This document shows, piece after piece, positions 17,504 to 31,947 of a stretch of DNA of 33,017 nt. The DNA is from Verrucomicrobiales bacterium. Its GTDB lineage: Bacteria; Verrucomicrobiota; Verrucomicrobiia; Verrucomicrobiales; DEV007. Both the position numbers and the translations under genes were made by a program. Position 1 is the first letter of the stretch. The number at the start of each line of letters is the position of its first letter. The notes beneath the pieces were generated by a model. It saw nothing but the letters and a program-made list of their open reading frames with translations. It made no database searches and was not told the origin of the DNA. Where the stretch lies: positions 14,048 through 47,064 of the forward strand of contig JARGOP010000006.1 in assembly GCA_029233965.1 (NCBI GenBank), read 5' to 3'.

Positions 17504-18955
17504 TCAAAGATCAATGATGTAGAACCGGTTCTGCGAAACCTGTTCCGCTTCCGGAATCGTGATCCAGCGTTCGAGGTAGCGTTCGCCCCAGGAATCGCTG
17601 AAGGCGATCTCGTTGGTCTCCTCGTTGTAACCGATGATGATGACAACATGCCCGCGACTGCGATCCGCCGGCAGGACTGCTTCGGCGGCAGCAGTAGTCA
17701 CGAGGTCACGGTAAGCGCCCCAGGGTTCAGACTTCCGCAGTTGGGTTCGCTCCGAAGCCGTGTCGTTAAATTCCGCTGTGCTGTAAAGCGCCCACATGAT
17801 CGGAATCCCGTCATCAATCGAGCGTTTGATGTCCCGCATTTTCAGCTCACCGGTTTCGATGTCGAAAGAGCGGCCTTTGCGTTTGATGTCACTTCCGATG
17901 TTCGAGAGCAGCAAATCTACCGAGGTCCCGCCACCCGCTTGAGTTTCTCCCGCCATGGCAAGGAGATACATGTCCGCAGGGATTCCAAGAAAACGCATGA
18001 TCCGCTCTGCCGTGGCGGGAACACAGTATCCTTTTGGCCCCTGATCGACCATCGGGATGTTCGTGACGACAACATCGCCGTTTTCCCGGGTCTCCACGAA
18101 TCCCCGGGCCCGCTCGCGGATCACGGCATCGGAAACCCTTGCGGTGCGTCCACGGTCATCGGCGGCCTCGACGGTTTGGATCGAAAGCGAAACATATTCC
18201 TCTTCAACATGAGAGAGAAGAAAGGAATGCCCGGCCCAGTCCCAGCGCTCGGCATTGACCCGTGATTCACCCTCTCCGAATTTCTGTGATTCCGGCTCTC
18301 CGAGAAGAGCCGTCAGTTTCTCCGCGATCGTCTTTGCATCGTAGGTCATGAGAGCTTTAACTCCCTCCATGCCTCCGGGAACCGGCTTTCCTTCGATGAA
18401 ATGATCTTCACCGGATCCTGCCGAGCTGAATGAGTCACCCTTGTTCGCGAAGACAATAGAGATGCCGGTGACCTTCTCGTTTTCGCCGTAGAGAGCAGCA
18501 GAGAAAGGGCGTGCCCCGAGAAAGCGATAGTCCTCTTTCGGGTAGGCGCGATAGGATTCGGAAATCTCGGTTTTTGATTCGCGGGGCCAGTCAAGGCGGG
18601 TCGCCACGTCTGCCGGGTTGCTGTCCCAGAGGGCGGCGTCGGCAAACAGTTCCTGACCGACGGCTTCATTGACGGCTGCGGCGGTGACTCCCGAAGCGGG
18701 AAGGACTGACGCGGGCGCGGAAGTCCAGCTTTTCAGATACTCCTGATCCCCGGCGGAGAGGGAGGAAATCGGGATCGTGAACGGACTTCCGTTCCTGAGT
18801 TGAATCGTGACCTGCCCACCACTGATGGATTCGACTTTTGCTTCAATCGATTTGCCTGCCGAATTGGTAAAGGTCCGATAGTCCTCTGCATGCGTTAGGG
18901 CGAGGGCGAGGGCGGAAAGAAACACCGCGAGAGCGACGGGGAAAGAGGCTTTCAT
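17504..18955 (-). CDS. Secreted SHD1-like domain plus C39/papain-fold peptidase-like protein
   Basis: The 483-aa exported protein has a signal peptide (MKASFPVALAVFLSALALALTHA). An SHD1/SLA1-type small beta domain follows at about 24-78 (DYRTFTNSAGKSIEAKV...PFTIPISSLSAGDQEYLKSW), a module frequent in Planctomycetes and Verrucomicrobia. A middle region of unknown fold (100-290) comes next. The C-terminal part carries a C39-type papain-fold signature: QGPKGYCVPATAERI (Gln305, Cys311), RGHVVIIIGYN (His436) and FSDSWG (Asp454). The set Q-C-H-D is complete, so activity is plausible. No ABC transporter or bacteriocin gene is near, so it is not an obvious leader-cleaving peptidase. It lies 72 bp downstream of nuoN on the same strand and probably has its own promoter. 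Confidence 0.75.
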   Translation of the reverse strand: MKASFPVALAVFLSALALALTHAEDYRTFTNSAGKSIEAKVESISGGQVTIQLRNGSPFTIPISSLSAGDQEYLKSWTSAPASVLPASGVTAAAVNEAVGQELFADAALWDSNPADVATRLDWPRESKTEISESYRAYPKEDYRFLGARPFSAALYGENEKVTGISIVFANKGDSFSSAGSGEDHFIEGKPVPGGMEGVKALMTYDAKTIAEKLTALLGEPESQKFGEGESRVNAERWDWAGHSFLLSHVEEEYVSLSIQTVEAADDRGRTARVSDAVIRERARGFVETRENGDVVVTNIPMVDQGPKGYCVPATAERIMRFLGIPADMYLLAMAGETQAGGGTSVDLLLSNIGSDIKRKGRSFDIETGELKMRDIKRSIDDGIPIMWALYSTAEFNDTASERTQLRKSEPWGAYRDLVTTAAAEAVLPADRSRGHVVIIIGYNEETNEIAFSDSWGERYLERWITIPEAEQVSQNRFYIIDL

Positions 18956-19027
18956 GCCCTGAGTCTACGCTTTTCCAGTGAGGTGGCAATACTTCACACG
19001 CGTTGGCCGAGGGCGGGAAAACGCCGC

Positions 19028-20512
19028 TCAGGAAAGCAGGCCTATGATGAGGGCAGGGTTCAATCCACCAATCAGGATCAGCGCGATAAGAACAATCATC
19101 GCGATGCGCGAGAGGGTGCCGACCGGGATCGCCGAAATGTCATCTTTCGGATCTTGCTCGCTGAGAAACATGGAAGCGGCGATTTTCAGGTAGTAGTAGA
19201 AGCCGGCTCCGGCGCCGACCAGACCCACCGTGAGCAGAAACCACTGCTGTTGCTGAACTGCGAGTTGGAAAACAAAAAACTTTCCAAAGAATCCCGCCGT
19301 GAGTGGAATGCCGGCGAGAGACGCCATCGAGATAATCATGGCAAAGGCGAGAAACGGGGACCGCTTCGCGAGCCCTTTGTAGGAAGTGAGGTCCTCACCC
19401 GGGATCTGAACGCGCACTGTTGTCATGACAAGAAACGCGAGAAGCGTCATGAGGAGATACGCACCGAGATAGAAAGCGATCACTTTGGCAGGAGAGAGAA
19501 ACTCACCGGCCTGACTGGCCGTCGGGGTGCAGGCCAGCGCCATGAGAAGAAAGCCGGCGTGAGCGACGCTGGAGTAGGCGAGGAGGCGCTTGAAGTTCTG
19601 CTGGGGCAGCGCGGAGAGGTTACCCACGATCAGAGTAAGCACAGCGATGACCGTCACGGCGAGGATGATTTTCCCAACGAGTTCACTGCTGGAAAGAAAG
19701 GGATCAATGAGGCGGAGAAGAACGATGAATCCCGCGGCTTTCGATCCGACCGAAAGAAAGGCGGTGATGGGTGTCGGAGCACCCTGGTAAACGTCCGGGA
19801 TCCAGAAGTGAAATGGGGCGCCGCCCACTTTGAAGGCAAGAGCGACGAGGATGAGGGAAAAAGCAAAGAGCGACCCGATCACGTTGACGTTGTCACCGGA
19901 GAGGGCGGTTTTGATTTCCTCGAGCTGCATGCTGCCGGTCATGCCGTAGAGCCAGGCAAATCCGTAAACGAGAAAGCCGGTCGAGAGTGCACCGAGGATG
20001 AGGTATTTCACCCCGGCCTCAAGAGAACCGACGTTGCGGCGGAGATAGGCAACCATAACGTAGAACGCAATCGTCACCGTCTCGAGCGCCACGAAAATAC
20101 TCACGAGATGGTTCGCCGAAGCCATGAGCATGAGACCGGCGCAGGCGAACATCGGAAGCGCGAAAAACTCGCCCAGCCCCGACTGAGGGTGAGCGCCTTT
20201 TTCCGGTGGAGCAGTCTGATCCACGACGATGCGGCTGTAGTCGGACGCCATGATAAGCACGACGAGGGTCGTCAGGATCGCGATGCCCTTGAAGTAGAGG
20301 GCCATCTGATCGCCTGTGGTATAGAAATTCCAGAACGGACTCTCCGTTGACTCGGGCCATTGAACGCGGAAGAGGAGGCCGAAAGTGACGACCAGTCCCA
20401 GCATTCCGATCCAGGCAATGGAGCGTTTGTCTTCCAGCTTCACGAAAGCGTCGACCAGCAGCATGATGATGCCGAGGGAGACAACGATGATTTCGAGGAA
20501 ATAGACCGGCAT
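19028..20512 (-). CDS. nuoN: NADH-quinone oxidoreductase subunit N
   Basis: This is a membrane antiporter-like, proton-pumping subunit of respiratory complex I. The 494-aa protein has about 14 transmembrane segments and a Proton_antipo_M core. Key pieces are the Glu in VALETVTIAFYVMVAYL, the Lys in SLEAGVKYLILGALSTG, and the signature KVGGAPFHFWIPDVYQGAPTP. It is the last gene of the nuo cluster. The 88-bp gap to nuoM is the second longest in the operon and shows no hairpin with a U-tract. No Shine-Dalgarno is visible. Confidence 0.95.
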   Translation of the reverse strand: MPVYFLEIIVVSLGIIMLLVDAFVKLEDKRSIAWIGMLGLVVTFGLLFRVQWPESTESPFWNFYTTGDQMALYFKGIAILTTLVVLIMASDYSRIVVDQTAPPEKGAHPQSGLGEFFALPMFACAGLMLMASANHLVSIFVALETVTIAFYVMVAYLRRNVGSLEAGVKYLILGALSTGFLVYGFAWLYGMTGSMQLEEIKTALSGDNVNVIGSLFAFSLILVALAFKVGGAPFHFWIPDVYQGAPTPITAFLSVGSKAAGFIVLLRLIDPFLSSSELVGKIILAVTVIAVLTLIVGNLSALPQQNFKRLLAYSSVAHAGFLLMALACTPTASQAGEFLSPAKVIAFYLGAYLLMTLLAFLVMTTVRVQIPGEDLTSYKGLAKRSPFLAFAMIISMASLAGIPLTAGFFGKFFVFQLAVQQQQWFLLTVGLVGAGAGFYYYLKIAASMFLSEQDPKDDISAIPVGTLSRIAMIVLIALILIGGLNPALIIGLLS

Positions 20513-20600
20513 GTTAGGAAAAATAAAAAGAGTGAAGTGACGGATTTGACAGGGTTAGGTCAGGCACGTAACAGGGTTTGAGACCCTCACCGGGGTCGAA

Positions 20601-22100
20601 TCATCCGGCGGTGACGAGGAAAAGCCCTTCGACGGCGGGACGGATAAACTGGTTCAAAATTTCAGGGACAAAGCCAACCGCGATGAGCGTGGCGAGAAGG
20701 AGAAAGTAGGGGAGCCTCGCGGTCATTGTCATGTCGGCCGGAGTCGCCATTTTCTTTTCGGGAGTTCCGAGGAACAAATTACGGAAGGCACGGAGCATGT
20801 AGACGGCAGAGATGACGACACCCCAAAGGGCGATAATTGTGGTCCATTGCAGCCAGCCGAGTGATTCGCCGGTGTCTTGAAACGCGCCGAAGAACACCGA
20901 AACCTCGGCGGCGAAATTCGCAAAGCCGGGGAGCCCGGCGGAGGCGAACGCGGCAAAGGCAAAGAGAAGCCCGAGTTTCGGAAGTTGACTCGCGATTCCG
21001 CCGAGTTCTTCGAAACTGACGGTGCCGTAATTTTTGCGGATCCATCCGCAGAGCGCGAAGAGCAGGGCGATAGAAACACCGTGCGCGAACATGAGGAGGA
21101 CCGCCCCGGAAACACCGAGTTGGTTGAAGGCGGCAAGTCCGAGGAAGACGTAGCCCATGTGCATGACGCTGGAGTAGCCGAGCATGCGGTCGAGCTTCTT
21201 TTGCGCGATGGTCACCAGACCGATGTAGATAATGTTTCCGAGAAGGAGGACGAGGAGCACGTTCAGCAGCGCCGCCATGCCCTCGGGGACGATGGGCATG
21301 GCGATCCGGATAAGTCCGTAGAGCCCGAATTTTTTGAGAACGCCGGCGTGAAGCATGGCGACGGGAGCCGGGGCTTCTGCGTAGGCGGGGGCGGCCCAGC
21401 TGTGGAAAGGAAAGAGAGAAACGAGGATTCCGAATCCGACGAGAAGGAAGGCAAAGATCCAGGTCTGCTGACTAGCGGCGATGCCGGTTTCGGGGTTCTT
21501 GGCCGTCGCGATGAGATCAGCAATCGCGAAGGTGGCGCTGCCGAGAGCGAAGACCGCCATGATCAATCCAACGAGAAGGATGAGGCTGCCGACGCCGAGA
21601 TAGATTGTGATCGTCCAGGCGGTGCGGACCCGGTTTTCCCCGTGCCCGAAAATGCCGATCATGAGGAAGGTCGGGATCAGCGCGAGTTCGTGGAAGGCGT
21701 AGAGGAAAAAGAGATCCGTCGAGGTGAAGGCTCCGATCGCACCTCCTCCGATGAGAAGAAGAGAGAGGTAGTAAAGTTTTGAGCTTCCTTTGATTTCATT
21801 CTCCTGAGGGGAAACAAGAACGGCGGCGACCATGACGAGGGTCGCGAGGAGCAGGAGGACAAGACTGATGCCGTCGATTCCGAAAGCAAGGCTCAAGGTC
21901 GGGAATCCGACCATGTCCATGAAAGTTCGGGAGGACTCGAACTGATAGGAGCCCTCAACATTCGGATTGAACTGGACGGCGACGACCAGACTGAGGATCA
22001 GCGTGATGATGGAAGCGCCCAGAGCAGAGAAACGGGCAGGTGCGCCCAGGCCGATCGCAAGGGCAGCGATCAGGGGCAGGAAAACGATGATTTCGAGCAT
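20601..22100 (-). CDS. nuoM: NADH-quinone oxidoreductase subunit M
   Basis: This is a proton-pumping antiporter-like membrane subunit of complex I, 499 aa from the ATG at 22100; an upstream GTG at 22106 adds two residues. It has about 14 transmembrane helices. The hallmark Glu lies in LFFLYAFHELALIPTFLMIG, and the half-channel motif in FPFHSWAAPAYAEAPAPVAMLHAGVLKK. The late motif SAGLPGFANFAAE is the usual NuoM GLPGTSGF..E region. It lies 30 bp downstream of nuoL. Confidence 0.95.
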   Translation of the reverse strand: MLEIIVFLPLIAALAIGLGAPARFSALGASIITLILSLVVAVQFNPNVEGSYQFESSRTFMDMVGFPTLSLAFGIDGISLVLLLLATLVMVAAVLVSPQENEIKGSSKLYYLSLLLIGGGAIGAFTSTDLFFLYAFHELALIPTFLMIGIFGHGENRVRTAWTITIYLGVGSLILLVGLIMAVFALGSATFAIADLIATAKNPETGIAASQQTWIFAFLLVGFGILVSLFPFHSWAAPAYAEAPAPVAMLHAGVLKKFGLYGLIRIAMPIVPEGMAALLNVLLVLLLGNIIYIGLVTIAQKKLDRMLGYSSVMHMGYVFLGLAAFNQLGVSGAVLLMFAHGVSIALLFALCGWIRKNYGTVSFEELGGIASQLPKLGLLFAFAAFASAGLPGFANFAAEVSVFFGAFQDTGESLGWLQWTTIIALWGVVISAVYMLRAFRNLFLGTPEKKMATPADMTMTARLPYFLLLATLIAVGFVPEILNQFIRPAVEGLFLVTAG

Positions 22101-22130
22101 GCTCACGGTATTTCCGGGGAAAAAGTTCGA

Positions 22131-23948
22131 TTAAAGAATGAGAAGGAGGATCAGTGCTATCACCGCGATTCCATAGAAGAAGGCGTAAGACTGAACATTG
22201 CCGAGTTGAAAAATTCGCAGGAAAGAGCCGGCTCCCATTGCCGCGAGGGCGGGGAAGCGAACCACGAAGGGATCGATCACGAAACGATCCACGATGTCAA
22301 GAATTGCAGCCACGGCGTCCTGAAAGATGCGGACGAGAGCGTTGTAGAATTCATCGATGTAGAAGCGGTTTGCGAACAGGGGAATGTGGATCGGGTCCTT
22401 GTCGCGCCCTTTGTAGAGGAAGATCGCCGCAGCTACTCCAACGGCGAGGCCGGTGAGAGACAGGATCGCGGTGAGCCCGAAGTGCTCGACGAGGTGGCTG
22501 AGGCTGCCGTAGCCGGTCGCGAGAAGCGGACCGGAAACCGGCTTGTAGGCGGAGAAGACAGCCATGACCGCGAGGATTGCGAGCGGAGCCCACATGAGCG
22601 GACCGACCTCTTTGGCATGATCGGCATCCTTCGTGCGATTTTTTCCAAAGAAAGCGACGATGACGAGGCGCGTCATGTAAAACGGGGTGAGGAAAGCCAC
22701 GATGATTCCGCAGACATAGGGGAACATCGCGCCTTCGTGATATGCCGCTTCGAGGATCATTTCCTTACTCCAGAAACCACTTGTGAACGGCACCGCGATG
22801 AGCGCCGCGGTTCCCAGCGCAAAGGTGGCGAAAGTGATGGGCATTTTCCTGCGGAGGCCGCCCATTTTCCAGATGTCCTGCTCGTGGTGGCAGGCATAGA
22901 TGACGGCACCGGATCCGAGGAAGAGGAGCGCTTTGAAGAAAGCATGCGTGTAGAGGTGGAACATGCCGGCGTCGCTTCCGCCGTGGCCGATGCCCTGCGC
23001 CATGATCATGTAGCCGAGCTGGGAGAGCGTCGAGTAGGCGAGAATGCGCTTGATATCGTTCTGCTGCAGCGCCATGAGCGCGGCGACGACGGCAGTGGCG
23101 GCACCGATGTAGGAAATGACCTGCGCCGCCATTTCGGTTGCTTCGATCAGGAAGACGACGCGGGCGAGCATGAAGACACCGGCGGCAACCATCGTGGCTG
23201 CATGGATGAGAGCGGAAACAGGCGTGGGGCCTTCCATCGCATCGGGTAGCCAGACATGAAGAGGAAGCTGAGCGGACTTACCGATCGCGCCACAGAAGAC
23301 GCAGAGCACGGCGATGTTGAGGAGAGCGAGGTTCGTGACTCCGCCGACGGCTTCTTTGATCTCTTCAAAATAAATCGAACCCGTCAGCACCCAGACCAGA
23401 AGAATGCCGATCATGAAACCGAAGTCACCGATCTTGTTCGTGAGGAACGCTTTCTTGGCGGCATCGGCAGCGGATTCCTTGTGGAACCAGTGACCGATCA
23501 GAATGTAGGAGCTGACGCCGACGAGCTCCCAGAAAATGAACATCATCACGAAGTTGTTCGCGAGGACGATACCGGTCATGGAGAACATGAAGAGCGAGAG
23601 TCCGGCAAAGTAGCGGGCCTTTCCTTTATCGTCCTTCATGTAGGCGAGTGAGAAAATGTGCACGAGAAGACCGATCGAGGTCACGATCAGCATCATGCCG
23701 CGGCTCAATTCATCGAGCTGAAAACCGATCTCGACCCGGAAGAGGTCTCCCATGTCGATCCAGGGAAACGCTTTCGCCTCACCGCCTTCGCCGCCCGCGA
23801 GGATCATGCAGAGAATAAAAGTGATGAGCACGGAACCGGTGGAAACCAGAGCGGAGAGTCCGGGGGAACGTTTCAGACCGAAGATGATGAGAGCAGCCAC
23901 AATGAGTGGCAGCAGGAGAACGGTCCAGGCGGTGGTATTCACATCCAT
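22131..23948 (-). CDS. nuoL: NADH-quinone oxidoreductase subunit L
   Basis: This is the distal proton pump of complex I, with the long lateral helix. The 605-aa protein has the expected length. Signatures are IFWELVGVSSYILIGHW, AFLTNKIGDFGFMIGI, KSAQLPLHVWLPDAMEGPTPVSALIHAATMVAAG, GGLRRKMPIT and PFTSGFWSKE. The C-terminal part, NRFYIDEFYN, matches the NuoL-specific tail with the lateral arm and a final transmembrane helix. It begins 20 bp after the nuoK stop. Large open frames on the opposite strand are shadows of its biased codon use. Confidence 0.96.
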   Translation of the reverse strand: MDVNTTAWTVLLLPLIVAALIIFGLKRSPGLSALVSTGSVLITFILCMILAGGEGGEAKAFPWIDMGDLFRVEIGFQLDELSRGMMLIVTSIGLLVHIFSLAYMKDDKGKARYFAGLSLFMFSMTGIVLANNFVMMFIFWELVGVSSYILIGHWFHKESAADAAKKAFLTNKIGDFGFMIGILLVWVLTGSIYFEEIKEAVGGVTNLALLNIAVLCVFCGAIGKSAQLPLHVWLPDAMEGPTPVSALIHAATMVAAGVFMLARVVFLIEATEMAAQVISYIGAATAVVAALMALQQNDIKRILAYSTLSQLGYMIMAQGIGHGGSDAGMFHLYTHAFFKALLFLGSGAVIYACHHEQDIWKMGGLRRKMPITFATFALGTAALIAVPFTSGFWSKEMILEAAYHEGAMFPYVCGIIVAFLTPFYMTRLVIVAFFGKNRTKDADHAKEVGPLMWAPLAILAVMAVFSAYKPVSGPLLATGYGSLSHLVEHFGLTAILSLTGLAVGVAAAIFLYKGRDKDPIHIPLFANRFYIDEFYNALVRIFQDAVAAILDIVDRFVIDPFVVRFPALAAMGAGSFLRIFQLGNVQSYAFFYGIAVIALILLLIL

Positions 23949-23968
23949 TAATACAAGCGGTCGGAAAT

Positions 23969-24295
23969 CTAGTATTTCATCGAGTCTACCTTCGTCACAT
24001 CCGTGGTTCCTTTGGAACGGAAGAGCGCGACAATGATGGCGAGTCCGACCGCTACCTCAGCGGCAGCGACGGTGATGATAAAAAAGAGGAGAACGTGGCC
24101 TTCGTAATCCGGTTGGCCTTCCTTGAGGTTGAAGCGTGAAAACGCCACGAGGGTAAGGTTCGCGGCCGCGAGCATGAGTTCGAGACACATGAAAATGATG
24201 ATGAGATTGCGGCGCACCAGAACCCCGGCGAGTCCAATCGCGAACAACACTCCGCTGACGAAGAGAAAGTGATTCAGGGTGAGAGCGGTTTCCAT
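23969..24295 (-). CDS. nuoK: NADH-quinone oxidoreductase subunit K
   Basis: This is a small 108-aa membrane subunit of complex I with three transmembrane helices, homologous to MrpC and ND4L. The two conserved helix glutamates are visible in [19 protein letters not shown] and [19 protein letters not shown]. The C-terminal 15 residues are charged and slightly longer than typical. It is followed 20 bp later by nuoL. Confidence 0.95.
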
Positions 24296-24324
24296 ACGGT
24301 CACAAACAGGCGTTCAAATCAGGC

Positions 24325-24834
24325 TCACTTCAACTCCTTCTTACTGAGAACGACCACTCCAATGGTGGCGACCAAGAGAAGAATACCGACCACCTGGATC
24401 GGGAACCAATACTGACTGAAAAGAAGTTCACCAATCCGGTGCACGTCGGACGAGCCGGGGCCTTCGGTGGCGGCAAGTGCGGGAAGGGTGGCGGCTCCAA
24501 CTTCGCTGCGGTTCAGGACAACGAGCAGCAGGGCGGCAAAAGCGGCGGCAACGCCGCCGGTGCAAAGTGCGCCAAAGAAAGGGAAGCGGCGGTTCTCCTC
24601 CACCCGGACATCGAGAAGCATGATGATGAAAATAAAGAGCACCATGATTGCCCCGGCGTAGACGAGAATCTGAAGAACACCAACAAGGTAGGCATCGAGC
24701 TGGATGAAAAGAGCTGCCAGGCCGAGAAATGAAACAATCATGGCAAAGGCCGCCGAAACCGGATTCCGGTTCACGACGACGCCGATTCCACCGACAAGGG
24801 CGAGAGCGGCAAAGATGTAGAAAAGAAAGGTCAT
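24325..24834 (-). CDS. nuoJ: NADH-quinone oxidoreductase subunit J
   Basis: This is the ND6-like membrane subunit of complex I, 169 aa with five transmembrane segments. The conserved pi-bulge region is recognisable as VYAGAIMVLFIFIIMLLDV, the standard QILVYAGA motif of NuoJ. It lies between nuoK and the heptad-repeat element that separates it from nuoI. The ATG at 24834 has no Shine-Dalgarno; the bases ahead of it belong to the repeat. Confidence 0.95.
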   Translation of the reverse strand: MTFLFYIFAALALVGGIGVVVNRNPVSAAFAMIVSFLGLAALFIQLDAYLVGVLQILVYAGAIMVLFIFIIMLLDVRVEENRRFPFFGALCTGGVAAAFAALLLVVLNRSEVGAATLPALAATEGPGSSDVHRIGELLFSQYWFPIQVVGILLLVATIGVVVLSKKELK

Positions 24835-24843
24835 TCTTTGGAG

Positions 24844-24925
24844 GGATCTTGGTTCTTTGATATTGGTGTCAAATCAGACTGCGTTTCTGGATTCACTAAG
24901 ATCCAACTTCCAAAATCCAATATCC
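24844..24925. repeat. Inverted array of 7-bp repeats (GGATNTT-type) between nuoI and nuoJ
   Basis: On the + strand, GGATCTT GGTTCTT TGATATT lie in tandem at 24844-24864. Their near-complements AAGATCC AACTTCC AAAATCC AATATCC lie in tandem at 24898-24925. On the minus (nuo) strand this reads four GGAnnTT heptads, a 33-nt loop, then three complementary heptads, so the mRNA can fold into slip-paired stem-loops. GGATCTT/AAGATCC is an exact 7-bp pair. The segment is visibly more AT-rich than its neighbours. It looks like a short tandemly repeated or REP-type element inserted inside the operon. Nothing else occupies this 96-bp gap. Confidence 0.7.
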
Positions 24926-24930
24926 TGAGG

Positions 24931-25461
24931 TTACTTCAGCTCGTTCCACTTATTCACGAGGCCGACGCGAACGCCGCCGATTTCGTAGAGTTTCTTTTTA
25001 TCGTGTACCATCTCGGCCCGGCTTGTGCCGGTGATGGCGTAATCTTTGCGGAGATAGATGGCCTGCTCGGGGCAAACCTCTTCGCAAAGGCCGCAATAAA
25101 TACAGCGAATCATGTCGATGTCGAACGCTTTGGGGCGCTTCTCCACCTTGGCCCACTTGTCATCGCTCGGGATTTCCTCCGGCTTGATCGTGATGGCGCG
25201 GGGAGGACAGATAAATTCACAAAGCTGGCAGGCGACGCAGCGCTCACGGTCCTGCTCGTCTTTCACGAGAGCGGGGGCACCGCGGTAGTGCTCGGGAAGG
25301 CTTTCGTCCCACTTCTCCTCGGGATACTGCATCGTGACCTTCTTCCTGCCGGATACGATCTTGAAGAAGTGGCCGAGAGTCACCCGCATTCCGGAAATGA
25401 TTCCGGGGATGTAGAGTTGTTCCCACCATTTCAGTTTTGGACGTTTAACGACGATTGCCAT
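24931..25461 (-). CDS. nuoI: NADH-quinone oxidoreductase subunit I
   Basis: This is the electron-transfer subunit carrying clusters N6a and N6b, linking the hydrophilic arm to NuoB. The 176-aa protein starts at the ATG at 25461; a GTG at 25500 would overlap nuoH and adds 13 unconserved residues. Two ferredoxin-type 4Fe-4S motifs are complete: CVACQLCEFICPP (Cys75, 78, 81, 85) and CIYCGLCEEVCPE (Cys120, 123, 126, 130). The N-terminal amphipathic region is typical. The C-terminal extension (about 140-176) is charged. Confidence 0.95.
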   Translation of the reverse strand: MAIVVKRPKLKWWEQLYIPGIISGMRVTLGHFFKIVSGRKKVTMQYPEEKWDESLPEHYRGAPALVKDEQDRERCVACQLCEFICPPRAITIKPEEIPSDDKWAKVEKRPKAFDIDMIRCIYCGLCEEVCPEQAIYLRKDYAITGTSRAEMVHDKKKLYEIGGVRVGLVNKWNELK

Positions 25462-25484
25462 GAGTTGAGGAGAGTAAGGTAGGT

Positions 25485-26564
25485 TTAAGCGAGCCACCAC
25501 ATGAGGAGGGCGGTGAGGACCACGTTAAACAAGGCGATTTCAAAGAAGAAGACCCAGCCGAGACGCATGAGTTGGTCGTAGCGGAAGCGGGGAAGCGTCC
25601 AGCGGATCACGATAAAGAAGAGAATCAGGGCGATGACTTTCGCGAAGAAGGTGCCGATGTGGATGAGGCCGTGCCACCATGGGACCGCGGCATCAGCGCT
25701 CTCAGGAGTGAGCCAGCCGAAGGGGAGACTCCATCCGCCAAGGAACAGGGTCACCGCGAGGCCGGATCCGATGATCATCGCGGCATACTCCCCGAGGAAG
25801 AAGAGCGCGAACTTCATCGAGCTGTATTCGGTGTGGTAACCGGCGACGAGCTCAGTTTCACACTCGGGAAGATCGAAAGGGAGACGGTTCGTCTCCGCGA
25901 ACATCGACGTCATGAAGACGATAAACGAAATCAGGACCGGAATGGTGAGGAGGAATCCTTTTACGCTGAGACCTTCTCCCCAGAGGGGTAGAAGCGCCCA
26001 GCCGTTCTCCGCCTGATACTGAACGATGCTGCTGAGGTTGAGCTCGCCGTAAATCATGATGAGCGGAACGACCGAGAGTCCGAGGGAAATCTCGTAGGAG
26101 ATCATCTGGCTCGTCGAGCGGACACCACCGAGGAAGGGGTATTTCGAGTTCGAAGCCCAGCCCGCGAGGACGATGCCGTAGACGGAAAGAGAAGCGACCG
26201 CGAAGACGAAGAGCGGACCGACGTCGAGATCGGCGATAACCATTTTCTCCCCGAAAAGTGAGCTGCCGAAAGGAAGCACCGCAGAGGTCATGAGGGCGGG
26301 CACCATGACGAGAGCCGGGGCGAGCCAGAAGTAGCCTTTGCGAACGTGGTCCGGGGTGAAGTCCTCCTTGAGAAGAAATTTAATGCCGTCGGCGACCGCC
26401 TGAAGAAGTCCCGCAGGTCCGACGCGGTTGGGGCCGACGCGGTCCTGGATTGCCGCACTGACACGGCGCTCGGCCCAGACCGACATGGCGACGAGCGGCA
26501 AGGTGACGAGAAACACGAAGACGACGATCTTTACAGACGCTGCGATGATGATATGCCAATCCAT
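25485..26564 (-). CDS. nuoH: NADH-quinone oxidoreductase subunit H
   Basis: This is the membrane subunit forming much of the quinone-binding chamber. It has 359 aa and about eight transmembrane helices. Signatures are WAERRVSAAIQDRVGPNRVGP, LLQAVADGIKFLLKED and PFDLPECETELVAGYHTEYS, the last holding the acidic residues of the E-channel. It lies 11 bp after nuoG and 23 bp before the preferred nuoI start. Confidence 0.96.
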   Translation of the reverse strand: MDWHIIIAASVKIVVFVFLVTLPLVAMSVWAERRVSAAIQDRVGPNRVGPAGLLQAVADGIKFLLKEDFTPDHVRKGYFWLAPALVMVPALMTSAVLPFGSSLFGEKMVIADLDVGPLFVFAVASLSVYGIVLAGWASNSKYPFLGGVRSTSQMISYEISLGLSVVPLIMIYGELNLSSIVQYQAENGWALLPLWGEGLSVKGFLLTIPVLISFIVFMTSMFAETNRLPFDLPECETELVAGYHTEYSSMKFALFFLGEYAAMIIGSGLAVTLFLGGWSLPFGWLTPESADAAVPWWHGLIHIGTFFAKVIALILFFIVIRWTLPRFRYDQLMRLGWVFFFEIALFNVVLTALLMWWLA

Positions 26565-26575
26565 GTTCAGAAAAG

Positions 26576-28288
26576 TCAGCCGACGATGAGTCCTCTGGCG
26601 ACACGCTCTTTCTCCCGCTCAAGCAGGGGAATCGTTTCGCCGGTTTCGATGAGAGGAATGCCCAGATCACCGATTTGCCCCCAGGTGAGGCCTTCGAATT
26701 CTGACACTTCCTGCGTCAGCTGTGTAAAGATGTCAGTTACGGAGTAAATCCCGTTTCCACCGCCGGTGGCCTGGATGAGGTCACGAACGATTTCCCAGGC
26801 CTCAAGCGTCAGGCCGGGGCCGTCGATGACTTTGTTGAGGCGCTGGAGGCGGCCGGTCACGTTGATCATCGTTCCCGACTTCTCAGCCCAACCGGCGCTC
26901 GGGAGGACGACATGGGCGACATCCGCGGTCGGATTTGCGAGAGGATAGGAAGTGAGGAGGAAATCGAGCTTTCCGAGGAGCTCGGCGCTGAAGTCCGCGT
27001 CTTCGACGAGATTTTCCTGAAGGGCGATCACTGCTTTGATGCGGCCCTGCTCGATGCCTTCTTTGATCGATTCGATCTGTGAACCGGGATCATCGAGTCC
27101 GAGGATGAGCTTCACGCCATTGGTGTTCGGGTTGCGATCCGCGGAAATGAGGTAGCCGTCGGCCTCGCCCATGCGGGTGACGGTGTCGACATGACCGGCA
27201 CCGAGGTGCTTGATGAGCCGGTTCGTCATGAGGAGTTCCTCATTCGTCATCCGGGCCGAAGCGATCACGGCGATTTCCCCGCCTTCGAGTCCGGCGAGCT
27301 TGTCAGCCGAAGTCGCAAGCGCTTCCTGCCAGGTCGCGAGGCGGTGGTTCTCTCCGTCGCAAATGAGAGGATCGGTGAGACGGGCGTCACTTTCGATCCA
27401 GTGGAAGTTGAGACGGTGGGAATCCGGCATCCAGTCGGAGTTCACGTCGTTGTTCTGACGTGGAGTGATGCGGTAAATCTTATCCTCGCGGCTGTAGACG
27501 GTGACGTTGGCGCCGGTCGCGCAATTCACGTCGATGGTCTTCGTCTCCTTCATGAACCAGACGCGCATCTGGAAGCGGAAGTCGTTGGAGGTCAACGCCC
27601 CGACGGGACAGATGTCGACGGTGTTGAGCGAGTAATTGTTCGCCAGCTCATGACCGGGATAAACGGTGAGGACGGTATGGCTGCCCCGATCAGTGAAGCC
27701 GAGAACCGGATCGTCGGCGATTTCATCGGTGAAACGAATGCAGCGGCTGCACATGATGCATCGCTCATCATCGAGACGGATTCTCGGGCCGACGTCGACA
27801 TTTTTCGGCTTCTTCACCTTCTGCTCACGGAAACGGGACTCGCCTTTTCCGTGTTCGACGGAGAATTCCTGGAGGGAACATTCTCCGGCCTGATCGCAGA
27901 TCGGGCAATCGAGCGGGTGGTTCGCGAGTAGGAGCTCCATGACCCCTTTGCGACACTCTTCTGTCATCGCACTCTCCGTATTGATGCCCATGTTGGGGGC
28001 GATCGTGTTCGCACACGCAATCGCCGGACGCGGAATCCACGAAATCGGAAGGTGGCCGTTTTCATCCGGCTCGGGTGGATCTTCACCGGGACGCGGACGT
28101 GGCGGCATCCCCATTTCGACGAGACACATGCGGCAGTTGCCGGGGGAAGTCAGCTTGGGGTGATAGCAGTAGTGTGGAACTTCGACACCGGCCTGACGGC
28201 AGGCTTCAATCATGCGTGTCCCTTTGGGGAAGGAATGCCACTCCCCGTTGATCTGGACGTCTATCAAATCGGATTTTTCTTCGCTCAT
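26576..28288 (-). CDS. nuoG: NADH-quinone oxidoreductase subunit G (short form)
   Basis: This is the iron-sulfur subunit of the peripheral arm. At 570 aa it is shorter than E. coli NuoG (about 900) and the about 700-aa NDUFS1 type. N-terminal 2Fe-2S ligands (N1b) are Cys41, Cys52, Cys55 and Cys92. The His-Cys3 motif (N5) is His124, Cys128, Cys131 and Cys137. The third cluster (N4) is Cys177, Cys180, Cys183 and Cys227. The extra N7 cluster ligands of some bacteria are absent: only one Cys (256) remains there, and the usual WLCDKGR is WMPDSHR. The molybdopterin-oxidoreductase-like C-terminal domain is reduced to about 280 residues. It overlaps the nuoF stop by 4 bp (ATGA). Confidence 0.95.
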   Translation of the reverse strand: MSEEKSDLIDVQINGEWHSFPKGTRMIEACRQAGVEVPHYCYHPKLTSPGNCRMCLVEMGMPPRPRPGEDPPEPDENGHLPISWIPRPAIACANTIAPNMGINTESAMTEECRKGVMELLLANHPLDCPICDQAGECSLQEFSVEHGKGESRFREQKVKKPKNVDVGPRIRLDDERCIMCSRCIRFTDEIADDPVLGFTDRGSHTVLTVYPGHELANNYSLNTVDICPVGALTSNDFRFQMRVWFMKETKTIDVNCATGANVTVYSREDKIYRITPRQNNDVNSDWMPDSHRLNFHWIESDARLTDPLICDGENHRLATWQEALATSADKLAGLEGGEIAVIASARMTNEELLMTNRLIKHLGAGHVDTVTRMGEADGYLISADRNPNTNGVKLILGLDDPGSQIESIKEGIEQGRIKAVIALQENLVEDADFSAELLGKLDFLLTSYPLANPTADVAHVVLPSAGWAEKSGTMINVTGRLQRLNKVIDGPGLTLEAWEIVRDLIQATGGGNGIYSVTDIFTQLTQEVSEFEGLTWGQIGDLGIPLIETGETIPLLEREKERVARGLIVG

Positions 28289-29682
28289 CTGAGGTTGGCG
28301 GCAGCGGTAAGTGCCTCGGCGTTGAGGAAATCGTCCTCGAGCTCAGGTTTCGTGTCCGCGACGAGCTCGTCGCGGAATTTTTCAACAAAGCTCTCGGTCG
28401 GCCAGGAGGCCGCTTCGCCGAAAGCGCAAATGGTGCGGCCGTCGATGTTTCTCGCGACGCTGTCGAGCGTGTCGATGTCGCTTGGGGAGGCTTTTCCGGC
28501 GACGACGCGGTCGGTGATCTTTTTCATCCAGAGCGATCCTTCACGACACGGGGTGCACTGACCGCAGGACTCGTGGGCGTAGAAATTGTTGATGTTGTTC
28601 AGAACCCAGCTGATGGAGCGGCTGTCGTCGATCACGATGACCCCTCCGGAGCCGGCCATGGAACCACAGGCGGCGAGAGTGTCGAAATCCATCGGGATGT
28701 CCCAGATCGTGAGTTCGCGGGCACCGTCGCCGCGTCCGACCGTGAAAACTTCGTCAGCGCGGAGGACTTTCGCGGAGGAACCCCCGGGAATGACCGCCTT
28801 GAGCTCGCGTCCTTCTTTGAGGCCGCCGCACATGTCGTTGATGAGCTCACCCATCGTGACTTTGCCGACCTGAACTTCATAGTAGCCGGGCTTTTTGACA
28901 TCACCGCTGACGCAAAGGATTCGCGTCCCCGTGTTGTTCGGGGTTCCCGTTTTTGCCCAGGCTTCACTCCCGATTTCGAGGATGTGCTTCACGTGGCAAA
29001 GCGTCTCGACGTTGTTCACGATCGTCGGGCAGAGGTAGAGCCCCATCGCAGCCGGAAAATACGGTGGCTTAATGCGGGGGTAGGGGCGCTTGCCCTCGAG
29101 GGACTCAATCAAACCGGTTTCCTCACCGCAGATGTAGGCACCGGCACCACGATGAACATAAATTTCGAGGTCAAATCCGCTGCCCTGAATGTTCTTGCCG
29201 AGGTAGCCGGCCTTGTGAGCTTCCGCGATCGCTTTTTCGAGAATCTGCGCGCCCTCGGGAAACTCTTCGCGGATGTAAATGTAGGCGAGGCGCGCACCGG
29301 TCGCGAAGCAGGCGATTGCCATGCCCTCGATGAGCTGATGCGGATCCTGGTGAATGATGTAGCGGTCCTTGAAGGTGCCGGGCTCGGATTCGTCCGCGTT
29401 GCAGATCAGATAGACGGGCTTGTCGTTGTTCGGCGGAAGGAAGCTCCACTTCATTCCCGCCGGGAAGCCTGCTCCGCCGCGTCCGCGAAGCCCGGCCGCT
29501 TTCACCTCTTCCGTGATCGTTTTCGGCTCCATGCCGAGAGCTTTCTTGAGCTGATCGTAGCCTCCTTCACTCTCGTAGGTTTTGAGAGAGGTGTCCCAGT
29601 CCGCCCGATCCACGTTTTTGAAAACGACGCGGTGCTCTTTGGGATGCGGCTCTTTGCCTGGTCGGTATTGAATCGCGCTCAT
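28285..29682 (-). CDS. nuoF: NADH-quinone oxidoreductase subunit F
   Basis: This is the NADH-oxidising flavoprotein subunit. From the ATG at 29682, 4 bp after the nuoE stop, it has 465 aa; an upstream in-frame start at 29715 overlaps nuoE. The FMN/NADH region shows GLRGRGGAGFPAGMKW, ADESEPGTFKDR and GAYICGEETGLIESLEGKRP. The N3 4Fe-4S ligands are in ESCGQCTPCREG (Cys373, 376, 379) and TICAFGE (Cys419). All catalytic motifs are intact. Confidence 0.96.
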   Translation of the reverse strand: MSAIQYRPGKEPHPKEHRVVFKNVDRADWDTSLKTYESEGGYDQLKKALGMEPKTITEEVKAAGLRGRGGAGFPAGMKWSFLPPNNDKPVYLICNADESEPGTFKDRYIIHQDPHQLIEGMAIACFATGARLAYIYIREEFPEGAQILEKAIAEAHKAGYLGKNIQGSGFDLEIYVHRGAGAYICGEETGLIESLEGKRPYPRIKPPYFPAAMGLYLCPTIVNNVETLCHVKHILEIGSEAWAKTGTPNNTGTRILCVSGDVKKPGYYEVQVGKVTMGELINDMCGGLKEGRELKAVIPGGSSAKVLRADEVFTVGRGDGARELTIWDIPMDFDTLAACGSMAGSGGVIVIDDSRSISWVLNNINNFYAHESCGQCTPCREGSLWMKKITDRVVAGKASPSDIDTLDSVARNIDGRTICAFGEAASWPTESFVEKFRDELVADTKPELEDDFLNAEALTAAANLR

Positions 29683-29686
29683 AAAA

Positions 29687-30181
29687 TCACTGATACTGGC
29701 TGAGGAGTCCGTCAACGTCGCTGACCGCTTCGTGGAAGTCGTCGTTCACGAGGCAAACAGGACCGGTGCCGCAGCTCGCGAGACACTCGGCGAATTCGAT
29801 GCTGAATTTGCCATCGGCGCTCACTGCGATCGGATCGTGATGCGTCACGCCGGAGCGATCAATGCCTGTTTTTTCACACAGCTTATCCATCAACTCGTAG
29901 CTGCCGGCCATGGCGCAACTGAGCGTGCGGCAGACCCGGATGTGGCATTTTCCGGGCGCCGACTGGCGGAAGCCCGGGTAGAATGTCACGACTTCGAGCA
30001 CCTGAATCGGCTCGAGTTCCAACTTGGCAGCGGCCCATTCGACGGCGGCTTCCTCGATGTAGCCGAAGTGATGCTGCAGGGCATGGAGGACTGGAAGCAC
30101 GGCGGACCTTTTGCTCACGGGGTAATGCGTGATGCGGTCATCGATTTCTTTTTCCAGATCGGAGGGGACAGCGAAAGACAT
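29687..30181 (-). CDS. nuoE: NADH-quinone oxidoreductase subunit E
   Basis: This is the thioredoxin-fold subunit with the N1a 2Fe-2S cluster, partner of NuoF. The 164-aa protein has ligands in CRTLSC (Cys84, Cys89) and ECLASC (Cys133, Cys137). The helical N-terminal part contains the family patterns FGYIEEAAVEWAA and EVVTFYPGF. It begins 11 bp after the nuoD stop. No Shine-Dalgarno is seen. Confidence 0.96.
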   Translation of the reverse strand: MSFAVPSDLEKEIDDRITHYPVSKRSAVLPVLHALQHHFGYIEEAAVEWAAAKLELEPIQVLEVVTFYPGFRQSAPGKCHIRVCRTLSCAMAGSYELMDKLCEKTGIDRSGVTHHDPIAVSADGKFSIEFAECLASCGTGPVCLVNDDFHEAVSDVDGLLSQYQ

Positions 30182-30192
30182 GGTCGGGAAAA

Positions 30193-31458
30193 TTAACGGT
30201 CACACTCACCCATGACGAAGTCGAGACTTCCGAGGATCGCCACGGTGTCACTCATCATGTTGCCTTCAAGAAGTTTGGGCAGAATGCTCAGGTTTACAAA
30301 GGAGGGGGCGCGGATCTTGAGACGGTAGGGGACTCCTCCGCCTTTGGAGTGGATGTAAAAACCAAGTTCGCCCTTCGGATTTTCCGCTCCGAAGTAGACT
30401 TCGCCGGCGGGGGCATCGAGCCCTTCAGTGACGAGGATAAAGTGGTGAATGAGTTCCTCCATGCTCATGAGGACCCGCTCTTTTTGAGGGAGCTTCTGTT
30501 TGCTGTCGACCACGTTGATGGGGCCGTCAGGCAGGTTCTTGATCGCCTGCTTCAGAATGCGAACGCTCTGACGCATTTCCTCCATGCGAACGAGGTAGCG
30601 GTCGTAGCAGTCCCCGATCGTTCCGACGGGAATATCGAAATCGTAATTCCTGTAGTCCAGGTAGGGATTCGCCTTGCGGAGATCGTGCTCAACGCCTGAA
30701 CCACGCAGATTGGGGCCGCTCAGTCCCCAGGCAATCGCTTCCTCCTTCGAAATGACCCCGATGTCGCGGGTCCGGTCGAGGAAGATCTTGTTGCGGGTGA
30801 GAAGGGTATCAATCTCGTCCAGCGCCGGAATGAATTCATCGCAGAACTTGTCGAGTTGGTCGATGAAACCTTCCGGAAGGTCGCGGATCTGACCGCCGAC
30901 ACGAGTGAAGCTGGTCGTAAACCGGGCTCCGGTGAGGAGTTCGCAGAGGTTGTAAATCGTTTCCCGCTGGGTAAAGGTGTAGAGGAAAACGGTCATCGCC
31001 CCGACGTCCATGGCGTAGGCACCGATCCCGAGAAGGTGGGCGGAAATGCGGGCCATCTCGCAGGAAATCGTGCGGATCGTCTGGCCGCGGGCCGGAAGTT
31101 CCCAACCCATGAGCTTTTCCACGGCGAGGGCGTAGGCGACGTTGTTCGCGAGAGGCGCAAGGTAATCGAGTCGGTCCGTGTAGGGCACGAACTGATTGTA
31201 TTGCATGTTCTCCGCGATCTTTTCGTCGCCGCGGTGCAGGTAGCCGACGTCCGGGTCCGCCTTCGTAATTACTTCGCCATCAAGTTCGAGCACGATGCGG
31301 AGGACGCCGTGTGTCGCGGGGTGGGACGGACCCATGTTCAGGGTCAGCTTTTCACCGACAAGATCGTCCGTGGTCTGCTGATATCCCTCAAGCTCAGACG
31401 CCGCCGCAGCGCGCGCTGCAGTGTCCTGAATTTCGAGCTCTTTTGTTGTCGTAGCCAT
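30193..31458 (-). CDS. nuoD: NADH-quinone oxidoreductase subunit D
   Basis: This is the 49-kDa homologue lining the quinone site. The 421-aa protein has the NMGPSHPATHGVLR signature, the GYLHRGDEKIAE motif, the PARGQTIRTI region and the C-terminal IRAPSFVNLSILPKLLEGN...GSLDFVMGECDR, all standard. The first about 33 residues are a charged, unconserved extension. It is the first gene of the operon here: nuoA, nuoB and nuoC do not precede it, and the next gene upstream is divergent. The 195-bp gap contains the promoter and palindrome listed separately. The bases just before the ATG are pyrimidine-rich with no Shine-Dalgarno. Confidence 0.96.
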   Translation of the reverse strand: MATTTKELEIQDTAARAAAASELEGYQQTTDDLVGEKLTLNMGPSHPATHGVLRIVLELDGEVITKADPDVGYLHRGDEKIAENMQYNQFVPYTDRLDYLAPLANNVAYALAVEKLMGWELPARGQTIRTISCEMARISAHLLGIGAYAMDVGAMTVFLYTFTQRETIYNLCELLTGARFTTSFTRVGGQIRDLPEGFIDQLDKFCDEFIPALDEIDTLLTRNKIFLDRTRDIGVISKEEAIAWGLSGPNLRGSGVEHDLRKANPYLDYRNYDFDIPVGTIGDCYDRYLVRMEEMRQSVRILKQAIKNLPDGPINVVDSKQKLPQKERVLMSMEELIHHFILVTEGLDAPAGEVYFGAENPKGELGFYIHSKGGGVPYRLKIRAPSFVNLSILPKLLEGNMMSDTVAILGSLDFVMGECDR

Positions 31459-31517
31459 GGCAGGAGGGGAAGTCGCGATAGTCGGTTCAATTGCCTATCG
31501 GGATCCGGAGAATTTCG

Positions 31518-31546
31518 AGTATCGGTGCGCCGTTTTGGAGTTTCAA
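31518..31546 (-). promoter_or_regulatory. Sigma70-like promoter of the nuoD-N operon
   Basis: Read on the minus strand, TTGAAA (31546-31541; 5 of 6 to the -35 consensus) is followed after exactly 17 bp by GATACT (31523-31518; 4 of 6 to the -10 consensus). Transcription would start near 31511, giving a leader of about 50 nt to the nuoD ATG at 31458. A CRP/FNR-type palindrome ends 6 bp upstream of the -35 box. This is the best-supported promoter in the window. Confidence 0.55.
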
Positions 31547-31552
31547 GGTGAG

Positions 31553-31572
31553 TTTGTGAAAAATTTCACAAA
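31553..31572. promoter_or_regulatory. Perfect CRP/FNR-family type operator between nuoD and a DUF1232-like gene
   Basis: TTTGTGAAA (31553-31561) and TTTCACAAA (31564-31572) form a perfect 9-bp inverted repeat around AA. Inside it is TGTGA-N6-TCACA, the E. coli CRP core consensus and close to the FNR type. It is centred about 50 bp upstream of the predicted nuo transcription start and about 90 bp upstream of the divergent gene at 31654, so a CRP/FNR-family regulator could act on both. The match is seen; the regulator's identity is inference. Confidence 0.6.
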
Positions 31573-31653
31573 GTCCTCGAGACGTTGATACGTTACAAAA
31601 AGGGAAGCGGATTGTAGTCGTTTCTTTGACTCAAAACATCGAACATCCCAACC

Positions 31654-31947
31654 ATGCAAAAAGAAGATACTGTTCACGGAGAGGTAAAGGATAAGCGGAG
31701 CGTCCTCACCTCTATCATCGTCGGGGGAGTTGGCGCTTTCAGTGCCGTGTATCTTTTAAACCCGACCGCCGGCTTTCTCGAATTGATCCCGGATAACCTT
31801 CCCGTGGTTGGAAATCTGGATGAAGCCGCCGCGGCCGCACTTCTCGTGAGCTGTCTCGCCTATTTCGGGGTCGACATCGGCGGGCTTTTCGGTCGGAAGA
31901 AAAAAGACGAAGCTTCGGATATCATCGACGTCGAGGCACAGGCCTAG
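31654..31947 (+). CDS. Small DUF1232-like membrane protein
   Basis: This is a 97-aa protein with a basic start, a hydrophobic segment (about 17-35) and the motif LLNPTAGFLELIPDNLPVVGNLDEAAAAALL. In shorter form, the core IPDNLPVVGNLDEAA resembles the DUF1232/YkvA core (IPDFIPVLGYLDD). A second hydrophobic stretch (about 56-78) and a GRKKK stop-transfer follow, then an acidic tail. The function of DUF1232 proteins is not known. It is divergent from the nuo operon and may share the palindromic operator. It is convergent with the lipoprotein gene 16 bp away. Confidence 0.7.
   Translation: MQKEDTVHGEVKDKRSVLTSIIVGGVGAFSAVYLLNPTAGFLELIPDNLPVVGNLDEAAAAALLVSCLAYFGVDIGGLFGRKKKDEASDIIDVEAQA

Follow-up and report, generated by a model that had tools for sequence, protein, structure and literature searches.

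The window, i.e., the whole 33,017-nt stretch of DNA analyzed here, contains a gap between nuoD, the first gene of a complex I unit, and a divergent gene, and in this gap a perfect palindrome stands directly in front of a predicted promoter. The locus raises the question of which regulator reads the palindrome and to what signal the complex I genes respond. A regulator of the CRP/FNR family had been proposed in the original prediction. According to the analysis reported here, the palindrome is very probably an operator of Rex, a single Rex protein repressing nuoD-N at a low NADH/NAD+ ratio and also controlling the ATP synthase and what is probably an alternative complex III.

Palindrome, promoter, and neighboring genes

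The following features were located, with positions given in the window:

31553-31572, no strand: putative Rex operator, a 20-bp palindrome TTTGTGAAAAATTTCACAAA, its 18-bp core (31554-31571) free of mismatches, as in 29 of 30 nuoD loci
31541-31546, minus strand: -35 box TTGAAA of the predicted nuoD promoter, from a consensus scan; its TTG is conserved at nuoD sites
31518-31523, minus strand: -10 box GATACT of the predicted nuoD promoter, from the same scan, 17 bp from the -35 box
30193-31458, minus strand: nuoD, putative first gene of the controlled unit, by profile match
17504-30181, minus strand: nuoE-N, the rest of the unit (E and F by profile; F, G, and H by tblastn; I-N from earlier annotation)
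31654-31947, plus strand: divergent 97-aa gene, possibly co-controlled, at a conserved distance from the operator

The perfect 9-bp inverted repeat holding TGTGA-N6-TCACA, 6 bp upstream of TTGAAA-N17-GATACT, was present as originally described. Its structure is TTTGTGAAA-AA-TTTCACAAA (31553-31572), with 9-bp arms and a 2-bp center, and it adjoins the predicted promoter, as expected of a Rex operator, with 6 bp between the end of the palindrome and the -35 box (minus strand, 31546-31541). The promoter was the sole match of the consensus scan over 31400-31720 (9 of 12 positions; mean of 0.3 in shuffles). With the transcription start of this predicted promoter placed, by inference, about 7 bp past the -10 box, the palindrome is centered at about -51.5, in agreement with the earlier claim of a center some 50 bp upstream of the predicted start, between the class I and class II positions. 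CRP/FNR sites are classically centered at -41.5 or about -61.5.

Both TGTGA-N6-TCACA and the 18-mer TTGTGAA-N4-TTCACAA (31554-31571) occur exactly once in the window. Loose scans of the window were uninformative, yielding 7 matches against 9.83 expected for the CRP core with up to 2 mismatches, and 1 against 1.05 for the 18-mer with up to 3. The weight of the operator comes not from these scans but from exact matches, which far outnumber a reversed-pattern control: 3 places against 0 in the host genome, and 118 against 1 in 141 genomes of the class.

The nuoD-N unit stood for NuoD, E, and F (profiles) and for NuoF, G, and H (tblastn), while nuoI-N were carried over from the earlier annotation. 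Across the common gap, the divergent gene was found where predicted, but its likeness to DUF1232 was weak (17.6 bits, cut-off 23). Among 39 loci examined, the start of this 97-aa gene was 81-88 bp from the operator in all 20 carrying it, a constancy suggesting that the gene may be co-regulated; inspection by eye could not fix a promoter for it. This near-constant distance, together with the gap common to both genes, could also mean that the palindrome mainly serves the 97-aa gene, or forms a transcript hairpin, and adjoins nuoD by accident. Such an explanation is improbable in the extreme. The nuoD operator was retained in 18 of the 19 loci without a match to the 97-aa gene, the same unit of operator and TTG box also fronts other nuo genes and atpB, no terminator-like site was found, and the predicted nuoD transcript does not include the palindrome.

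Candidate regulator and its co-occurrence with the operator

TGTGA-N6-TCACA is the core of CRP-type operators. This core is present in Rex operators too, so that it does not discriminate between the two families. The full 18-bp core at 31554-31571 matched the published Rex consensus TTGTGAANNNNTTCACAA with 0 mismatches, the consensus being as given in passages of papers (PMC5355995, PMC6391272, PMC5317091) that quote Ravcheev 2012, the main comparative Rex study.

The host genome (4.83 Mb draft, 151 contigs, 96% complete) contains one Rex gene. Its product was over the cut-offs of PF06971 and PF02629 (N-terminal winged helix and NAD-binding Rossmann domain, respectively), scored 235.6 bits with the NCBIfam Rex profile (cut-off 226), and matched solved Rex chains with a best E of 4.1e-39. 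Residues K44, Q47, R49, K50, G59, R61, G62, and Y65, of which R49 and K50 lie in the recognition helix and R61 and G62 in the wing, aligned with the DNA-contact residues of Thermotoga maritima Rex, and GVGNLG (residues 90-95) aligned with its NAD loop, as these are reported in PMC8836258. The host Rex has thus kept both the DNA contacts and the GXGXXG loop of the Thermotoga protein.

Profile searches of the 96% complete draft found no CRP/FNR transcription factor. Seven host proteins had a cyclic-nucleotide-binding domain, none of them with a DNA-binding domain in a Pfam scan, and HTH_Crp_2 had no host match over cut-off, the two sub-threshold matches being a DtxR-type and a MarR-type protein. 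The operator is therefore like those of CRP/FNR regulators in its core, but unlike them in that no factor of this family was found in the host. That a cAMP-, oxygen-, or redox-responsive CRP/FNR-family regulator binds TGTGA-N6-TCACA and controls nuo would accord with the exactness of this core and with a placement upstream of the -35 box that resembles an activator site. It was rejected as highly improbable, given the missing factor, the conserved outer and inner bases that complete the full Rex consensus, and the co-occurrence of operators with Rex across genomes. The regulator family first named is thus most likely wrong, and the search for a CRP/FNR-family gene that the original prediction had proposed as a check found none in the draft. 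Its wider claim, redox-responsive control of complex I, is probable, though via Rex, whose consensus the site equals and whose gene the genome holds.

Exact operators were found in 31 of 43 Rex-positive genomes of the class (113 operators) and in 4 of 98 Rex-negative ones (5 operators), with a Fisher p of 3.5e-17 that treats the 141 genomes as independent despite common descent. The per-genome numbers of Rex matches and operators are hand counts. Rex-positive denotes a match over cut-off to a single profile, PF06971 (Rex N-terminal domain), which also matches E. coli among the controls (6 of 7 matching controls were over cut-off). Twelve of the 43 Rex-positive genomes were without an exact operator. 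A Rex match was present in 29 of the 36 nearest genomes, and those without were three from genus g2 and four incomplete genomes (52-83%); G026 (83% complete) had 5 operators and no Rex match. All 15 same-genus genomes searched hold three to five exact operators.

Upstream of nuoD, the exact operator was present in 29 of 30 loci (host included), from a set unselected for the motif, for which 36 genomes were searched and 34 had a NuoD match. The palindrome looks genuine as an operator of the nuo promoter, and its conservation in close relatives, which had been set as a test, favors Rex over CRP/FNR. The sole exception (L066, genome G034, genus g2) belongs to a genome without a Rex match; in genus g2, 0 of 18 genomes had a Rex match and 0 of 18 an exact operator. 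The g2 genomes are small, and the genus may be Akkermansia. A second set unselected for the motif comprised 80 named loci among the matches listed, mostly titled Verrucomicrobiota, of which one was too short. Among the 79 usable loci of these listed matches, 35 had the exact nuoD operator and 44 had not (15 with nuoC directly upstream and 29 without), so that control of nuoD by Rex does not extend to the whole phylum. Several of the 29 were titled Spartobacteria or Chthoniobacterales, and two had a 1-mismatch site. The two sets overlap, their 64 nuoD sites representing 58 distinct sequences. In one further alignment, chosen by the exact motif, palindrome conservation exists by construction and only the flanks are informative. 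The exact operator, its conservation, the promoter boxes, the Rex residues, and the co-occurrence with Rex are observations made here.

Two host proteins with a cyclic-nucleotide-binding domain are recorded for their architecture: a type II NADH dehydrogenase fused to this domain and two CBS stretches (contig C133, L003:157-2250), and a fumarase/aspartase-type lyase with the domain at its N-terminus (contig C7, L006:1-1902, minus strand).

Operator targets and promoter designs

All three exact host operators precede energy-metabolism genes, namely nuoD, an actA-like gene, and atpB. The second is 49-50 bp upstream of a multihaem cytochrome gene followed by a gene for a MoCo/FeS fusion protein. 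These act-like genes matched the QrcA, QrcB, and QrcC profiles below cut-off and the TAT-variant MoCo domain over cut-off, and are probably actA-actB of alternative complex III. By eye, this operator proved to be part of a more extended perfect palindrome (L026:5043-5072), each arm of which is 14 bp long. The third is 102-103 bp upstream of atpB in the F1Fo ATP synthase operon. A decayed operator with 3 mismatches was found at nuoB, which shares a contig with nuoD at a distance of about 27 kb (contig C27, minus strand, upstream of 73058), its left arm decayed and its right arm and TTG box intact; the nuoB operator was exact in the close relatives examined.

Two host sites had 1 mismatch. One is 45 bp upstream of ppk1, encoding polyphosphate kinase 1 (contig C83, L029:5009-5026). 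Among 30 ppk1 loci scanned (one without upstream DNA), no other had a site with 0 or 1 mismatch, so that ppk1 was not counted as a secure target; in several relatives the half-site TTCACAA alone recurs at a similar distance. The other (L028) falls within the first ~50 bases of an unannotated reading frame. Autoregulation of rex was rejected for the host, in whose genome no operator was found near rex; rex genes often, though not always, have an operator of their own. Among 58 rex loci scanned, some being the same gene twice, an exact upstream site occurred in 3 (L159, L161, and L167) and a 1-mismatch site in one further locus (L165).

Targets were similar in relatives. Nine genomes of the order held 60 exact sites, and 57 of these adjoin respiratory or quinone-chain genes. 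By tblastn, 54 stood beside NuoB, NuoD, NuoF, NuoG, NuoH, NuoM/N-type, AtpB, ActA, NDH-2, or a polyprenyl synthetase, the last presumably a quinone side-chain enzyme. The remaining six consisted of one site preceding a NuoJ-type gene (L271), two at a cytochrome c gene (L286 by profile, and L289 by its clustering with L286), and three without an evident respiratory neighbor (L264, L280, and L293). Where nuo was split, as many as five or six of the separated genes had their own operator. The neighbor survey covered 82 loci (one set minus two sites, part of the sites of same-genus genomes, and two host sites), and cyd and hem genes were absent from the operator sites examined.

The position of the operator relative to the promoter split the targets into two groups. 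At nuo (B, D, F, G, H, and M/N) and atp sites, a TTG followed the 18-mer by 5-8 bp in 41 of 41 cases, two of which (nuoD of G032 and G035) were read separately from their loci. The same spacing was found at 57 of 58 distinct nuoD sites, 27 of these 57 having an [AG]ATA[ACG]T box 17 bp after the TTG (hand count). The one clear NDH-2 site also had a TTG box after the operator. A TTG at this spacing was absent from all 8 act sites and all 4 polyprenyl-synthetase sites. By eye, many act sites showed TAAATG- or TAAGTG-like boxes 17 bp after the TTGTGA of the operator, which together could be the act promoter itself.

By homology, Rex most likely binds this site, represses from it, and responds to NADH as elsewhere. 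At low NADH/NAD+, Rex carrying NAD+ would bind the operator and hold down nuoD-N transcription; as NADH builds up, under oxygen shortage or surplus reductant, Rex would be released and complex I made. The stretch just upstream of the -35 box is where the alpha subunit of RNA polymerase normally docks with its C-terminal domains. In a first reading, a bound Rex dimer at nuo and atp would cover this stretch and mask the upstream contacts of the polymerase.

Placement of the operator upstream of the TTG box at all 41 nuo and atp sites could also suggest that Rex-NAD+ contacts RNA polymerase there and activates, while repressing at complex III. Many -35 boxes are moreover poor beyond TTG (e.g., TTGCCG and TTGCGA), and poor -35 boxes are typical of activator-dependent promoters. 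Activation is nonetheless unlikely. The spacing between operator and TTG varies from 5 to 8 bp, and opposite control of complexes I and III is physiologically implausible. Rex is described as repressing nuo and atp in Streptomyces avermitilis (PMC5355995). In Listeria, Rex is described as a repressor and the genes requiring it for expression had no Rex sites; direct activation by Rex was not mentioned in the portions of the literature consulted.

With repression by Rex as the preferred reading, a broader scheme may be put forward tentatively, and is on balance doubtful. In Verrucomicrobiales, nearly all of the respiratory chain might be set by one Rex acting at promoters of two kinds. At complex I and ATP synthase the operator would precede the -35 box, and Rex would act on the upstream contacts of the polymerase, either covering an AT-rich stretch that resembles an UP element or conceivably activating; at complex III the operator would overlap the promoter. 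Where nuo is split, each piece would keep the operator-promoter unit.

Relation to known Rex systems and implications

The closest parallel is the Rex regulon of S. avermitilis, as described in PMC5355995. There, one Rex represses nuoA1-N1 and atpIBEFHAGDC by binding an 18-bp motif in front of each, so that the consensus, the single regulator, and the complex I and ATP synthase targets are alike; ndh2 is a target as well, and NDH-2 sites occur here in relatives. Rex acts as a repressor when it is bound to its site with NAD+, and comes off with NADH (PMC5355995, PMC8836258). The systems differ in that S. avermitilis sites deviate from the consensus whereas those found here are exact. Its operators lie over the promoter, with protected regions of -42 to -16 (nuoA1) and -50 to -22 (atpI), whereas the nuo and atp operators here lie upstream of the TTG box, relative to predicted starts. 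The probable alternative complex III and polyprenyl synthetase are targets here, unlike in S. avermitilis (PMC5355995).

No description of Rex control in Verrucomicrobiota was found in the open-access literature searched, nor one of Rex control of alternative complex III in the accessible parts of that literature, where Rex and complex III were both mentioned, without a link (PMC5317091). The finding is that of a known regulator in a new taxon, with an extension of its targets.

One Rex and one operator type at complex I, the probable alternative complex III, and ATP synthase imply that NADH/NAD+ would set them together, rising NADH raising all three. The two operator placements offer a test of repressor action from upstream of the -35 box, and genus g2, in which neither Rex matches nor exact operators were found, constitutes a natural experiment. 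The operator-promoter unit may be used for finding respiratory genes in uncultured genomes. If the proposal is true, the joint response of these three complexes to the NADH/NAD+ ratio, as read by Rex, would amount to a regulatory code of respiration that can be tested, in a phylum for which genetic tools are scarce.
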